Shown one piece after another: positions 27,535 to 33,022 of a stretch of 64,000 bases of DNA; within the stretch, counting starts at the first letter, position 1, and every line of letters begins with the position of its first letter. The stretch comes from Bifidobacterium psychraerophilum. Lineage in GTDB: Bacteria > Actinomycetota > Actinomycetes > Actinomycetales > Bifidobacteriaceae. The DNA is taken from the NCBI RefSeq assembly GCF_000741705.1, contig NZ_JGZI01000010.1, forward strand, positions 620,001-684,000, read 5' to 3'. Position numbers and translations under genes: made by a program. A model generated the notes under the pieces. It did not search any database, was not told the DNA's origin, and worked only from the letters and a program-made list of their open reading frames with translations.

Positions 27535-28638
27535 TCATCCGATCAGACCTGAACGTGCGACCCAATCCCCATAGAATATGACCAGACCAACCAGTACCAA
27601 CAGCAGTTCGATCATCCAGAAACGAACGACGACTTTGGATTCATGCCATCCCTTGAGCTCGAAATGATGGTGGATCGGTGCCATTTTGAAAACACGCTTA
27701 TGCGTCATCTTGAAGAATCCGACCTGAATCACGTCGGAGAGTGTTTCGATGACGAACAGACCACCGATGATCACGGCAAGCACTTCGGTGTGGGTGGCGA
27801 TGGACAGCGCGGCGAACAAACCGCCCAAGGACAGCGACCCGGTGTCCCCCATGAAGATGGATGCGGGATTGGTGTTGTACCAGAGGAATCCGAAACAGGC
27901 CACCGCGGCGCAGACCGCGATAATCGACAGATCCAAGGGATCGGACACCGCGTAGGAGTACCCGATGTGATCCCCTCCCTTGATGTGGTAGCTCTCCCAG
28001 AACGCGATCAGCCCGTATCCGACGAATGCGATCATCGAGCTGCCTGCCGCAAGCCCGTCAAGGCCATCCGTCAGGTTCACCGCATTCGACCATGCGGTCA
28101 TCAGCAGATTGACCCACAGGACGAACAGCACCGCCGCCAGCAGGCGTCCGGCGAAATCGAAGGAGAGGAAGGGCTTTTCGATGAAGGCGATGCCTGCCTG
28201 CGCGCTCGGGAATCCCGATTTGGTGGGCACCATCAGCGACAGCAATGCGTAGATCGTGGCCAGTACGAACTGCCCGGCGAATTTGGCCCCGACGGAAAGG
28301 CCGAGGTTCTGTTTTTTGCGCACCTTCGCGAAATCGTCGATGAACCCGAGCAGACCCATCGAAAGCATGGCGAACAGCACCAGCATGGCCGACCATGATG
28401 GTGCGTCACCGCGTGAGCAGTAGCGGTAGATGGCCGAAGAAGCCCAGCCCAGCACGATGGCCAGATTGATGACGACGCCGCCCATAATCGGCGTGCCACG
28501 CTTGACCTGATGGGATTTCGGGCCATCCTGGCGGATGTACTGCCCGTAATTGAGCTTATGGACGAGACGGATGAGCAGAGGCGTACCGACGATGGTGACG
28601 ATGAAGGAGACCACCATTCCTATGATCAGTGAAATCAA
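27535..28638 (-). CDS. mraY: Phospho-MurNAc-pentapeptide transferase
   Basis: Ten-helix enzyme (367 residues) that makes lipid I. It shows the N-terminal GQYIRQDGPKSHQVKRGTP and MGG, the catalytic LLGFIDDFAKVRKKQNLGL, NAVNLTDGLDGLAAG, FMGDTGSLSLGG and the PIHHHFELKGW motif. The start is TTG 28638, overlapping the murF stop as TTGA, with GAGG seven bases upstream. The longer frame to 28698 runs inside murF and was rejected. Confidence 0.95.
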   Translation of the reverse strand: MISLIIGMVVSFIVTIVGTPLLIRLVHKLNYGQYIRQDGPKSHQVKRGTPIMGGVVINLAIVLGWASSAIYRYCSRGDAPSWSAMLVLFAMLSMGLLGFIDDFAKVRKKQNLGLSVGAKFAGQFVLATIYALLSLMVPTKSGFPSAQAGIAFIEKPFLSFDFAGRLLAAVLFVLWVNLLMTAWSNAVNLTDGLDGLAAGSSMIAFVGYGLIAFWESYHIKGGDHIGYSYAVSDPLDLSIIAVCAAVACFGFLWYNTNPASIFMGDTGSLSLGGLFAALSIATHTEVLAVIIGGLFVIETLSDVIQVGFFKMTHKRVFKMAPIHHHFELKGWHESKVVVRFWMIELLLVLVGLVIFYGDWVARSGLIG

Positions 28639-30251
28639 CGCTGGACCTCGCCATTCTGTTCGTCGGCGGTCATACTGTGTGACTCGCGTTTCTCCCATTG
28701 CTCGGCCAAGGCGCTCAAGCCTGAGACATGGGAGCCTTTGAGCAGTACGACCATGTTGCGGTGCTCCTGCCCCAGTGAGCTAATCATGTCATCCGCCTGT
28801 TTCGCGTCCTGAGCCAGCAACACTTTGAAGTCCTGAGTGGATCCGGTGACTCCGCGTCTTGATGCCTCGTCCTTCGCCCCATCGGCCAGAGCCTGGGCGA
28901 GTGGAGCGAGGGCCTCATTGCCTCCGACCGCGACGACGGCATCCAAGGAGAGATCGGCGCACTGCTCGCCTATCTGACGGTGCAAGGCGAGTTCATCAGC
29001 GCCAAGCTCCAACATCGCTCCCAGCACGGCGACGCGGAATGGCTTGTCTTCGCCGGACGAGCCCCATGCGCTCAGACCGCGCAACCCTGCCCGCATCGAG
29101 TCAGGATTCGCATTGAAGGAATCGTCGATCAGTGTGAATGCGATGCCATTGCGCTCCACGGTGGAGACGGCCATGCGATGAGGGCTGATACGACGTTGAT
29201 CGGCAAGCACTGCCGCTATGTCATCGAGCGGGAGACCCAGATGGTGCGCGACGGCAGCAGCGGCCAATGCGTTCATCACATTGTGCTCCCCACTGATACC
29301 CAGGGTGACGGGAACATGCTCCGCTCCGTCACTCATGGTGAAGGAAGGATGGTCCAAACCATCGACACGGATATCCTGGGCGGTCATGTCAAACGCCTGC
29401 CCTTCGTTGAAGACGTCGACTCCTGAGCCGGCCTGTTCACCGAACCAGAGCACCCTGCCCGGTGCGAATCTGCGCATCTGCGCCACACGGGGGTCGTTGG
29501 CGTTGAGCACGGCGACGCCACCGGGGAGCAGGCCCTGCACGATCTCGCTTTTCGCCTTCGCGATATTCTCCACCGATCCGAATTCACCGAGATGCGCCAC
29601 ACCGACCTTGAGCGCGATGGATATATCGGGTGGGGCGATATTCGTCAGGTACGTGATCTCACCGATATGGGATGCACCCATCTCCGCGACCAGGAAGCGG
29701 GTCGATGCGTTGACTTCAAGCGCGGTAAGGGGCAGTCCTATCTCATTGTTGAAGGAACCGACGGGAGCGATGGTGGAACCCAGACGCCTCAACAATGAGG
29801 AGAGCAGGTCCTTGGTCGTGGTCTTCCCGACTGAACCGGTGATCCCGATAATCGTCAACGGCAGGTCCATCTCACGTCGCTTGTCCAGATTATGCCTGGC
29901 CAGCAGACCGAGGGCCCGCACGCTGTTCTCCACAACGATCTGGGCGACGGAGGAGCCCTCGACCACATGCTCGACGATGGCCGCGACCGCACCGCTCGCA
30001 GCGATGCCGGGCACGAAATCGTGTCCGTCTACCCGCTCACCCGCTATGGCGACGAAAACGGAACCTTCCCGGAGCTGACGCGAATCACTCACCACATTCG
30101 TGGCTTCCGCCCGGATATGAGGGGACCCATCCCCGCTGCCCTGTCCCAAATCCGCATGAGGGCCATCGCCGTCGACCAACCTGCCGTGAACCGCTTCGGC
30201 GATCTCCTGCAAGGTCATTGGCACCATGCCGACATTCTCGTCCTGATTCAT
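28635..30251 (-). CDS. murF: UDP-MurNAc-tripeptide--D-Ala-D-Ala ligase
   Basis: Cytoplasmic Mur ligase of 538 residues. It has the N-terminal MurE/MurF-type domain (SDSRQLREGSVFVAIAGERV DGH split by its normal motif), the ATP loop GITGSVGKTTTKDLL, FLVAEMGASHIGEI, and the C-terminal DDSFNANPDSMRAGL. ATG 30251 with AAGG eight bases upstream is used rather than GTG 30260. It follows the degenerate MurE-like gene by ten bases, which suggests tight co-expression. Confidence 0.95.
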   Translation of the reverse strand: MNQDENVGMVPMTLQEIAEAVHGRLVDGDGPHADLGQGSGDGSPHIRAEATNVVSDSRQLREGSVFVAIAGERVDGHDFVPGIAASGAVAAIVEHVVEGSSVAQIVVENSVRALGLLARHNLDKRREMDLPLTIIGITGSVGKTTTKDLLSSLLRRLGSTIAPVGSFNNEIGLPLTALEVNASTRFLVAEMGASHIGEITYLTNIAPPDISIALKVGVAHLGEFGSVENIAKAKSEIVQGLLPGGVAVLNANDPRVAQMRRFAPGRVLWFGEQAGSGVDVFNEGQAFDMTAQDIRVDGLDHPSFTMSDGAEHVPVTLGISGEHNVMNALAAAAVAHHLGLPLDDIAAVLADQRRISPHRMAVSTVERNGIAFTLIDDSFNANPDSMRAGLRGLSAWGSSGEDKPFRVAVLGAMLELGADELALHRQIGEQCADLSLDAVVAVGGNEALAPLAQALADGAKDEASRRGVTGSTQDFKVLLAQDAKQADDMISSLGQEHRNMVVLLKGSHVSGLSALAEQWEKRESHSMTADEQNGEVQR

Positions 30252-30261
30252 CGAATGCACC

Positions 30262-31149
30262 TTAAGACAACTCCCTTGAAACGCGCAGTGCGCTTCGTAT
30301 ATTGTTCTTCTTCACTCCAGCAGCCATCACCATGGCAATACTCAACGACAACCTTCTCGTCGAATCCTCATCCTGGAAGACATTCGATTGCACCGCAAGG
30401 GCGTCGGAATCCTCACTCCTGGCCGCCACGTGGGTGCGATCCCCCCTGGAGAAACCGAAAACGCGCGAGGCCCTGTCGGCCATGATCGCCAGATCGTCGC
30501 GTCCCGGCCGCTGCTGCTGCGCGAAACTCAGCACATCGACCTCTACGGCGTGCAGCGCATCCTCTTTCAGGGTCCCGTCATCGGCACATATGGCAACCGC
30601 GGTCGCACCATCCTCGACGCATACCGACAGCAGACGCTGGATGTCAATCGCGCTGAGAGGGTAGGAGACATCAAGTTGACGATCCAGGGAATAGGATCCC
30701 TTCGCACTGATCACGCCAACCGGATTGCCGAGGACGTGGAGGAATTCGGACAGCACCTTGACCGAAGCGGAGGAATCCTCACCACTGACCACGAACAACG
30801 CAAGCGATTGCGATGGCTTCCCCGCTATGTCCGCCGCAAGCTCACCTATCTGCCTGGCATCCAGATCACCGAAGAGGACGGGTATGTCCGAAGACTCAAG
30901 CGGCCCCCTGAGCGCAGTCGGCGCCAGCACCGCATATGCACCCCGCCGTTCGGCCTGGGAAAGCATATGCTCGTCGAGCTCCTGACCGAAGGGCAGCAGC
31001 AGTGAGCCCGGCCGGACGGAATCAAGATCATCCGCGATGGAGGTTATGGTGACCGGTTCGGAGAAACGAGGTGAAACCACAAGACCGTAATGGGTGCACA
31101 AATACCCCAGGGTCATGCGTTGCGCGATCGATTCGCCCAATGCGCTCAT
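30262..31149 (-). CDS. Degenerate MurE-like protein in the murE slot, predicted inactive
   Basis: 295 residues where murE is expected between ftsI and murF. The fold can be followed along MurE: ITSIADDLDSVRPGSLLLPF matches the N-terminal TGxxxDSRxVxPGxLFxA; AERRGAYAVLAP matches AxxxGAxAVL; then LGNPVGVISAKGSYSLDRQL, SAIDIQRLLSVCVEDGATAV match the strand-helix order around GTNGYRIG and the DLQRLL helix. Yet the ATP loop GTNGKTT is GEDSSAS (about 125-131), and EVSSHAL is lost (ICADDGTL). The C-terminal ligase domain is missing except a short tail. ATG 31149 with GAGGCGGGG upstream was chosen. The frame is intact and coupled to its neighbours, so a non-catalytic role is likely. A working murE must lie elsewhere. 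Confidence 0.75.
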   Translation of the reverse strand: MSALGESIAQRMTLGYLCTHYGLVVSPRFSEPVTITSIADDLDSVRPGSLLLPFGQELDEHMLSQAERRGAYAVLAPTALRGPLESSDIPVLFGDLDARQIGELAADIAGKPSQSLALFVVSGEDSSASVKVLSEFLHVLGNPVGVISAKGSYSLDRQLDVSYPLSAIDIQRLLSVCVEDGATAVAICADDGTLKEDALHAVEVDVLSFAQQQRPGRDDLAIMADRASRVFGFSRGDRTHVAARSEDSDALAVQSNVFQDEDSTRRLSLSIAMVMAAGVKKNNIRSALRVSRELS

Positions 31150-31225
31150 CGTCCCCGCCTCTCTTCCTTGTTCCGACATCCGCGTGTCTGTCTGTTCCCA
31201 GTGCGGCGACTCAGATTCACCAACA

Positions 31226-33022
31226 TCACCAATCTACCGGGATAGCATCCTTACGTGGTGTGGAAGTGGGAACCTCGTATTTCTGCATAAGGAATTCACC
31301 AATATTCGCGAAGACAGGACCAGCGGTCAGACCGCCGTATGTGCCTTGCGGATCCTTCATGACCACGGTCACCACGAACTGCGGATTGTCGGCGGGCAGT
31401 ACGCCAACCCAGTCCGCAACGATGGAGGTCAGTCCGCCGTTGGATCCGGCCACTTCGGCGGTTCCCGTCTTCGCGGCCACCCTGTATCCGTCGACGGCCG
31501 CAACGCTTTTGTAGTTCTCAGCCACCGACTCCATGGCATTGAGCACCTCGGAGGACACGGTCGAGCTGACGACCTGCGTCGATGACGTCTTGGGCTTGGT
31601 CACCGTGCCATCAGCCGAGGTCACCGAGTCGATGATGGACTGCTGCTGTTTGACGCCCTTGTTGGCGATCGTGGCCACGGCGTTCGTGATCTGCAGGGCG
31701 TTGGTGGCATATCCCTGACCGAAGAGCACGGTGTTCCTGGTGCGTCGATCCCAGTTCTCGGATGAGCTGAGCAGGCCTTGCGACTCCCCGGACAGGCCCA
31801 TGCCGGAAGGCTGCCCGATTCCGAACTTCGTCAGGTACTCATAGCGCTGTGCCGTGGTGTACTGGTCGCCCGCCATCACCATGCCGACATTCGAGGAATT
31901 CTGCAGTATGCCTGCGAGCGTCCACTGTTTGGTTCCGTGGGACTCCGAGTCGTGGTACTGCTGTCCGTCCACATCGATGCTGTACGGGACGCTGAATTCA
32001 TCGGTGATCTTATGCGTCCCCTCCTGGAGCATTCCCGCCAGGGAGATGATCTTGCCGACGGATCCCGGCTCGAATGTCTCGGTTACGGCAAGCGAGGGGT
32101 TCATCTTCGCCTCCGCGCTGCCCGCCTCCACCTGGTCGGTTCCGGCCAATGCCAGTATCTTCGCATCGGAGACGCGTTGGACCACGGCAATCGCCCATTT
32201 CGCCTTGTATTTCTCCTGGCCTTCCTTCAAGGCCTTTTCGACGTACCACTGCACATCGCGATCCGTTGAGAGTTTCACGGTGGCGCCGTTCACCGCCGCT
32301 TTGGACTCGGTTTCGGTGCCGGGGATCTGCTGCCCGTTGGCTCCCTGCTGGTATATCTGATACCCGTCCGTCCCGGTCAGCGATGCGTTCTCCATCTTCT
32401 CGATGCCGGAGACACCGTTGTCATCGGTGTCGACGCCACCGAGCAGCGAACCCATCAGCGTGCCGTTCGGGTAGGTCCGTTCGCTGCTGAGCTCCGCGCT
32501 GATGATGCCACTGAGGTTCAGGGCATCGATGCTGCGTTTGACCGAAGGAACCACGTTCTTCTTGATCACCACGTATTGGTTGGTACCGGTGAGCAGTGCG
32601 CCGAGCTGCAGGGCATCCATGCCCAGAACCGGTGCCAGCAGACGCGCGACGGCGGCGGGCCCGGTGACGCCCACCGGTTTGCCGTCGATGCTGTGGCAGT
32701 TGCTCGCCGTCTTCTTGGTGCAGGTGGTTGGCTTGAAGGTCGCGGCGAATTTCGGATTGCCGATGATCGTATAGCGCTCCACGCTTTGGGCCAGCACGAT
32801 GCCGTTCGTATCCGTAATCGTTCCACGCTCCGCCTGCAGCACCTGTTTGGTCGTTCTGCTTGCGGTGGCGGCCTCGGCAGTCGTCTTACCGTCGAGAAGC
32901 TGGATATATGCCAGTTTCACCATCGCGGAGGAGGCGATGAAGGCGAGTATGAAGGCGATGACGATCACACGCTTGCCGAATGCGGAGCAATGCTTCCAGA
33001 AGGAGATACCCGATCGAATCAT
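31226..33022 (-). CDS. ftsI: Class B penicillin-binding protein FtsI (PBP3)
   Basis: Septal transpeptidase of 598 residues. One N-terminal helix (VIVIAFILAFIASSAMVKL), a pedestal domain with RGTITDTNGIVLA, then the transpeptidase domain with S321VGK, S376SN and K518TG. A Cys pair (CTKKTASNC, about 101-109) is present in the pedestal and could form a disulfide outside the cell. The start overlaps the ftsL-like stop (ATGA), with AAGGGG five bases upstream. Confidence 0.95.
   Translation of the reverse strand: MIRSGISFWKHCSAFGKRVIVIAFILAFIASSAMVKLAYIQLLDGKTTAEAATASRTTKQVLQAERGTITDTNGIVLAQSVERYTIIGNPKFAATFKPTTCTKKTASNCHSIDGKPVGVTGPAAVARLLAPVLGMDALQLGALLTGTNQYVVIKKNVVPSVKRSIDALNLSGIISAELSSERTYPNGTLMGSLLGGVDTDDNGVSGIEKMENASLTGTDGYQIYQQGANGQQIPGTETESKAAVNGATVKLSTDRDVQWYVEKALKEGQEKYKAKWAIAVVQRVSDAKILALAGTDQVEAGSAEAKMNPSLAVTETFEPGSVGKIISLAGMLQEGTHKITDEFSVPYSIDVDGQQYHDSESHGTKQWTLAGILQNSSNVGMVMAGDQYTTAQRYEYLTKFGIGQPSGMGLSGESQGLLSSSENWDRRTRNTVLFGQGYATNALQITNAVATIANKGVKQQQSIIDSVTSADGTVTKPKTSSTQVVSSTVSSEVLNAMESVAENYKSVAAVDGYRVAAKTGTAEVAGSNGGLTSIVADWVGVLPADNPQFVVTVVMKDPQGTYGGLTAGPVFANIGEFLMQKYEVPTSTPRKDAIPVDW

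Follow-up and report, generated by a model that had tools for sequence, protein, structure and literature searches.

The frame between ftsI and murF

Between ftsI (31226..33022, minus strand) and murF (28635..30251, minus strand) of the window, the 64,000-nucleotide stretch of Bifidobacterium psychraerophilum DNA analysed here (C10:620001-684000), an open frame on the minus strand runs from 31149 down to 30262, including its stop codon at 30262-30264. The 295-residue product, which we call pseudo-MurE, is a putative MurE-derived pseudoenzyme made up of domains 1 and 2 only. Its upstream neighbour is ftsI; downstream, murF is followed by mraY (27535..28698, minus strand). A second in-frame ATG lies at 31179. 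Relatives align from 31149, and the Shine-Dalgarno-like sequence AAGGAAGAGAGG (31158..31169, minus strand) stands 8 nt ahead of the ATG at 31149, not before the one at 31179. All 80 named relatives likewise have a Shine-Dalgarno-like word ahead of the start codon, as scored with a permissive pattern and no chance control. Ten bases separate the pseudo-MurE stop codon from the murF ATG at 30251 (an in-frame GTG lies at 30260), and the Shine-Dalgarno-like AAGGTG ahead of that ATG overlaps the pseudo-MurE stop codon. The intact frame, the ribosome site and the ten-base gap given in the preliminary description were all confirmed.

That description had traced the gene along MurE by the motifs VRPGSL, GNPVGVI, AIDIQRLL and GAT, and all four are present in the translation. 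So are the two substitutions it had pointed out, GEDSSAS for GTNGKTT and ICADDGTL for EVSSHAL; by translation and alignment, the former marks a degenerate Walker A region at residues 122-129 (30763..30786, minus strand). The similarity of pseudo-MurE to MurE is far above chance. The protein matched the NCBIfam MurE/MurF model with E 6.2e-12, far under the curated cut-off, and TIGR01085 (murE) with E 6.1e-9, at 35.3 bits against a cut-off of 257.3; its score against the NCBIfam MurE equivalogs, 44.2 bits, likewise stayed below the cut-off of 1023. A profile built from 50 relatives picked Mycobacterium tuberculosis MurE among the PDB sequences (E 3.7e-15). In Pfam, pseudo-MurE itself gave no match, and none of the 50 relatives matched a Mur ligase model, including that of the middle domain (PF08245), at E <= 0.01.

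The preliminary description had named a lack of structural similarity to MurE domains 1-2 as a refutation; the predicted model instead has the fold of these domains. The AlphaFold model scored pLDDT 93.4 and pTM 0.89, and its best Foldseek match was M. tuberculosis MurE (E 5.0e-15). With VIA-align, the model aligned to residues 29-373 of M. tuberculosis MurE (2xja; Z 22.2, 275 residues, rmsd 4.2) and to residues 2-335 of E. coli MurE (Z 21.2, 265 residues). Pseudo-MurE thus retains domains 1 and 2 but has lost the C-terminal ligase domain, a loss that the preliminary description had pointed out; in the predicted model pseudo-MurE ends at the border of domains 2 and 3, where the C-terminal ligase domain should start. 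A relative from genus g12, only 30% identical, gave a model (pLDDT 84.9) that aligned to M. tuberculosis MurE with Z 23.9 over 284 residues. Other structure matches were mostly members of the Mur ligase superfamily, namely MurF, cyanophycin synthetase and folylpolyglutamate synthase, and N-terminal fragments of LpxD matched the pseudo-MurE models with Z about 11 over domain 1 alone. The structure matches revealed no second fold at the edge of pseudo-MurE opposite the old active site, which does not show that there is none.

Distribution, gene slot and selection

Scanning genome contigs with the single sequence returned no relative; an alignment-based scan found them. We found pseudo-MurE in 177 of 189 Bifidobacteriaceae genomes, with E 1.1e-20 for the poorest of the 177 best matches, and in all 161 good genomes (completeness of 90% or more, contamination of 5% or less). 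Each of the 12 genomes lacking it is less than 90% complete. Named relatives carrying the gene belong to Bifidobacterium and Bombiscardovia, plus a single Bifidobacteriaceae MAG; of 134 loci found, 80 were kept. No internal stop was found among the pseudo-MurE rows listed from the family scan and the reduced genomes; the longer order-wide profile overruns the C-terminus of many rows and so counts the terminal stop as one stop. In a sample of the order (347 genomes, 317 of them outside the family, with at most six candidates per genome scored), no match listed from outside the family, of which 20 were checked, scored above 96.6 bits, and the open frames of these matches were at least 431 amino acids long, as complete MurE would be.

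The gene keeps a constant place. In 36 of 43 pseudo-MurE loci (L042-L070 and L072-L085, from 40 genomes, three of them counted twice) the order was ftsI-X-murF, X being pseudo-MurE; in the other seven, all from g12, it was mraW-X-murF. All of ftsI, pseudo-MurE and murF were found, irrespective of their order, in each of the 80 named loci. Outside the family, we collected 49 loci, 20 from the order, picked across families, and 29 that were the best matches of the class. Here, ftsI, a long murE frame and murF stood side by side in 44, while the remainder showed ftsI-murE-mraY (three loci), ftsI-murE (one) or murE alone (one). The shared position thus indicates that pseudo-MurE occupies the canonical murE slot of the dcw cluster.

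Some members of the family have nothing in this slot. In five loci from five genomes of g4, g10 and g16 (L253-L256 and L261), murF directly follows ftsI and leaves no room for a gene. In a quick tree of FtsI plus MurF with SH-aLRT support, the 27 rows with pseudo-MurE came together in a single clade (98); its sister (95), within a family clade supported at 100, comprised the 10 rows lacking pseudo-MurE, from nine genomes. The group without pseudo-MurE consists of incomplete MAGs. The existence of this sister lineage means that not every family member needs pseudo-MurE. Read most simply, one lineage deleted the dcw murE, and the other retained it in a dead state.

Genus g12, with genomes of 0.6-0.9 Mb, keeps pseudo-MurE beside murF, together with a complete MurE and MurF; its loci are L061-L063 and L065-L068. 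The FtsI of the window matched none of five g12 genomes at E <= 1e-5, and all five keep pseudo-MurE. Two transpeptidase proteins were found in each of six g12 genomes, versus four in the B. psychraerophilum genome and in G118. Because pseudo-MurE persists in g12 in the absence of a recognisable FtsI, its function does not hinge solely on FtsI.

Selection on the gene was compared with that on its neighbours in 28 independent species pairs, chosen by ftsI and kept after pairs with dS below 0.03 or above 1.6 in any gene had been dropped. Median dN/dS was 0.128 for pseudo-MurE, 0.148 for murF and 0.102 for ftsI; the value for pseudo-MurE was thus lower than that of murF (Wilcoxon p 0.0024) and higher than that of ftsI (p 0.022). 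We used pairs chosen by ftsI because an earlier set of 22 pairs (0.119, 0.141 and 0.099, respectively) had been selected by pseudo-MurE identity, which introduces a bias. Near-universal presence and a dN/dS of 0.128 therefore mean that the gene is no pseudogene. Indeed, the preliminary description had judged it to be kept rather than decaying, and both the family comparison and dN/dS bear this out; frameshifts of the kind that would mark decay did not appear among the rows listed.

Residues lost and kept, and the two sheet edges

We compared 50 rows of the pseudo-MurE family with 49 canonical MurE in one alignment; percentages are weighted, and residues are given by their canonical letters with window residue numbers. 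Of the 38 columns at least 95% conserved in the canonical proteins, seven still have the residue in 80% or more of the family, and the other 31 have lost it. The losses include G54, H58, G59, most Walker positions, T162, T163, E188, S190, S191, R198, F209, N211, H216 and R293, while G123 of the Walker loop (82%) and P164 of TTP (94%) are among the columns kept. The GxxxHG loop, TTP, EVSSH and Arg are the UDP-MurNAc and peptide contacts of MurE. Columns 54, 58-60, 162-163, 188-191 and 198 of these contacts are lost, P164 being retained. At the Walker lysine, all 49 canonical rows have K, versus one of the 50 family rows, with a gap in 31; GK[TS] occurred somewhere in three of the 50 and GxxxxGK[ST] in none of 69 extracted rows. 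Judged by these residues, pseudo-MurE is seemingly dead as a catalyst.

The family has also gained residues of its own. In 18 columns, conservation reaches 90% or more in the family but not in canonical MurE, among them T34, Y72, F119, H138, L140, N142, P143, R157 and D180. Several of these fall in the family motif LHxLGNP (residues 137-143; 30721..30741, minus strand), whose columns are invariant in the 50-row alignment and which is present in 68 of the 69 extracted rows, the sole exception having Gln in place of His (H138). Within the motif, L137 and G141 are old, being found in canonical MurE, and the remaining letters are new. Long, low-complexity and probably disordered insertions after about residue 216, on the side of the old active site, were observed in the pseudo-MurE of L043, L045, L048, L050 and L059.

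From strand order in the predicted model and the parallel topology of the Mur central domain, we defined the active-site edge and the opposite edge of the central sheet. Over the first four strands, mean Jensen-Shannon conservation at the active-site edge was 0.33 in the family versus 0.68 in canonical MurE, and at the opposite edge 0.59 versus 0.48; wider residue sets gave 0.33 versus 0.66 and 0.55 versus 0.47, respectively. The difference between the edges was reached by none of 20,000 permutations, a figure to be read knowing that adjacent columns are non-independent and that the edges were named after the alignment had been seen. On the predicted model, the active-site edge has lost conservation and the opposite edge, the site of LHxLGNP, has gained it. 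The opposite edge carries this motif and D180, which are new, as well as E179, G181 and D205, already frequent in MurE (E179 79% and D205 74% in the canonical proteins).

Complete MurE, origin and possible role of pseudo-MurE

The search for a full murE elsewhere in the genome, proposed in the preliminary description, found one. A 536-residue frame at C10:601909-603501, on the contig of the window and about 47 kb from pseudo-MurE, encodes a complete MurE with the motifs GTKGKTT, TTPES and MEVSS. It passes NF001129 (MurE equivalog; 805.1 versus 762 bits) and falls slightly short of the TIGR01085 cut-off (245.8 versus 257.3 bits). When the same genome was searched with the pseudo-MurE profile at E 1e-6, with six of 12 first-look candidates scored, the complete MurE was not reported. 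A match to the complete MurE at E <= 1e-10 was obtained in 185 of 189 family genomes and in all 161 good ones. In the tree, the working MurE makes up a clade separate from that of the 49 canonical actinomycete MurE, and it is at most 33-34% identical to any of the MurE of the class that were listed. Its separate clade and low identity therefore make it possible that it was acquired by transfer from elsewhere.

At least 15 Bifidobacteriaceae genomes (G019, G030, G041, G043, G059, G065, G070, G072, G073, G078, G082, G085, G086, G094 and G111) have two adjacent complete non-dcw MurE copies, the second being 51-55% identical to the query. The complete MurE of g4, g10, g16 and G171 (L086-L093, L101 and L103) stands apart in the tree from the main Bifidobacteriaceae type, and no adjoining ftsI or murF was found at these divergent loci. 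Within the family, then, this enzyme may have been exchanged on more than one occasion.

From the position of the gene, we infer that pseudo-MurE is the former murE of the dcw cluster, as it stood in an ancestor of most Bifidobacteriaceae. Catalysis would have passed to another MurE, whose gene lies outside the cluster, and the dcw copy would have shed the ATP site, the contacts with UDP-MurNAc and peptide, and all of the C-terminal domain while keeping the fold of domains 1 and 2. We argue this origin from gene position because AU tests reject none of the alternatives. In the free quick tree, pseudo-MurE joined four canonical MurE, all from a single family of the order (96); grouping pseudo-MurE with the working Bifidobacteriaceae MurE was not rejected (p 0.33), and a tree uniting all Bifidobacteriaceae MurE-like rows had a log-likelihood 8.0 higher (p 0.69). 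The trees are compatible with descent from the dcw MurE but are not decisive.

A shortened, seemingly dead MurE that is kept under selection probably has a new, non-enzymatic job in cell-wall building. The lost ligand contacts, the kept fold, the strong selection, the conserved opposite edge and the fixed place before murF favour a binding protein over an enzyme or a sensor. We are therefore inclined, with slightly better than even confidence, to regard pseudo-MurE as a MurE-derived pseudoenzyme that serves as a scaffold of the cytoplasmic precursor enzymes or as the link between them and the divisome. Encoded alongside MurF and MraY, this Mur-fold protein would be non-catalytic and would most likely work as a scaffold or adaptor, and the edge opposite the old active site (LHxLGNP, D180, E179, G181 and D205) would hold a partner. 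Candidate partners of the precursor machinery are MurF, the relocated MurE or a divisome protein. Rate covariation singled out no partner, the partial value being 0.44 for pseudo-MurE with murF versus 0.43 for mraY with another neighbour (39 pairs). The scaffold or regulator role suggested in the preliminary description is plausible. Points against the scaffold are the sister lineage of incomplete MAGs that lacks pseudo-MurE, the unremarkable rate covariation with murF and the persistence of G123 and P164.

Other explanations have to be weighed against this one. Pseudo-MurE might be a ligand sensor: on binding UDP-MurNAc-dipeptide or a different precursor, it would control MurF or the real MurE. 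Domain 1 of MurE binds the UDP-sugar; in pseudo-MurE this domain is kept as a fold, and P164 is kept in 94% of the family. However, the family has not kept loop 54-60 (G, H, G, A), T162/T163, E188/S190/S191, R198, F209, N211 and H216, and the long low-complexity insertions of several relatives, past about residue 216, fall on the side of the old active site, so that a sensor seems unlikely. In particular, binding of UDP-MurNAc-dipeptide, put forward as an example in the preliminary description, is disfavoured because positions that hardly vary among the 49 canonical MurE, in the sugar-nucleotide loop, at the threonines of TTP, at the Arg and in EVSS, are not kept in the family. The opposite edge could instead have become a new catalytic or ligand site, formed by Y72, H138, N142, R157, E179, D180 and D205, which are 91-98% conserved in the family; E179 and D205 are also common in canonical MurE, and H138 is Gln in one of 69 rows. 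Nothing points to a reaction, however, and we give little credence to such a site.

The place of pseudo-MurE directly downstream of ftsI in most loci examined would suit a septal-synthesis adaptor working mainly with FtsI. Its retention in g12, where the window FtsI matched none of five genomes and all six genomes have two transpeptidase proteins, speaks against this reading, which we hold to be quite improbable. A decaying pseudogene, or a spacer that maintains translational coupling to murF, could draw on the overlap of AAGGTG with the pseudo-MurE stop codon. For these, dN/dS near 1, frameshifts and patchiness would be expected; we found instead a dN/dS of 0.128, open frames with no internal stop among the rows listed, family-wide presence, residues invariant over 50 diverse rows, and retention of the gene in genomes of 0.6-0.9 Mb. 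Both were rejected and are hardly credible. Returning to the scaffold, a more specific form of it is possible, although we hold it at less than even confidence: in most of the family, the dead MurE may be a fixed structural subunit of the precursor machinery, catalysis having been handed to the MurE of another locus and the dcw copy having retained, and specialised in, a protein-binding role that Mur ligases of the dcw cluster may play alongside catalysis. If true, evolution would have split two roles of MurE.

Comparison with known proteins places pseudo-MurE near several of them. It shares with MurE (TIGR01085; M. tuberculosis MurE, 2xja) the fold of domains 1 and 2 and the slot between ftsI and murF but lacks the Walker Lys, the UDP loop, the TTP threonines, EVSS, the Arg and the C-terminal domain, and scores far below the MurE cut-offs. 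The complete non-dcw MurE of its own genome is a co-resident member of the same Mur ligase family; unlike pseudo-MurE, it has the catalytic motifs GTKGKTT, TTPES and MEVSS, and it lies about 47 kb away. PAP11 of the plastid-encoded RNA polymerase (8r6s) tied for the best structural match (Z 22.2, 266 residues) and represents a MurE fold recruited into a protein complex, albeit in plants rather than bacteria and with the C-terminal domain kept. According to the accessible part of one report, PAP11 is a MurE homologue that forms part of the plastid RNA polymerase in plants, and many of its catalytic residues are retained in most streptophytes (PMC12681378). The Bordetella MurE-MurF fusion (8f5d) resembles this locus in placing a MurE-like protein and MurF side by side; whereas the fusion is bifunctional, pseudo-MurE has no catalytic motifs and is encoded by a separate gene. 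The available portion of PMC6420597 describes the fusion as bifunctional and as binding MurG oligomers. Mur synthetases of M. tuberculosis gave protein-fragment-complementation signals with FtsZ, FtsW, FtsQ, Wag31 and SepF; together with PAP11 and the Bordetella fusion, they set a precedent for non-catalytic roles of this kind. No Mur-Mur interaction was seen in the part of that M. tuberculosis study open to view (PMC3605390), which counts against the scaffold reading.

A literature search, for which subscription papers were mostly out of reach, found no description of the pseudo-MurE gene, and the accessible sections of PMC4255298, PMC6327494 and PMC12795277 contain none. The last of these reports, in the same sections, a MurE of B. 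adolescentis whose gene identity is not stated there. In B. breve UCC2003, TraDIS yielded 53 essential hypothetical genes, as given in the accessible text of PMC5514069.

The pseudo-MurE family is missed by every Mur ligase Pfam model, as judged from the 50 members tested, and its members could easily be mistaken for MurE. Genetic tools exist for bifidobacteria. Whether Mur ligases play a non-catalytic part in a precursor complex or at the divisome is difficult to examine, since their chemistry requires the active enzymes. A conserved and seemingly dead MurE beside a working one would make such a structural role testable on its own, in bifidobacteria.
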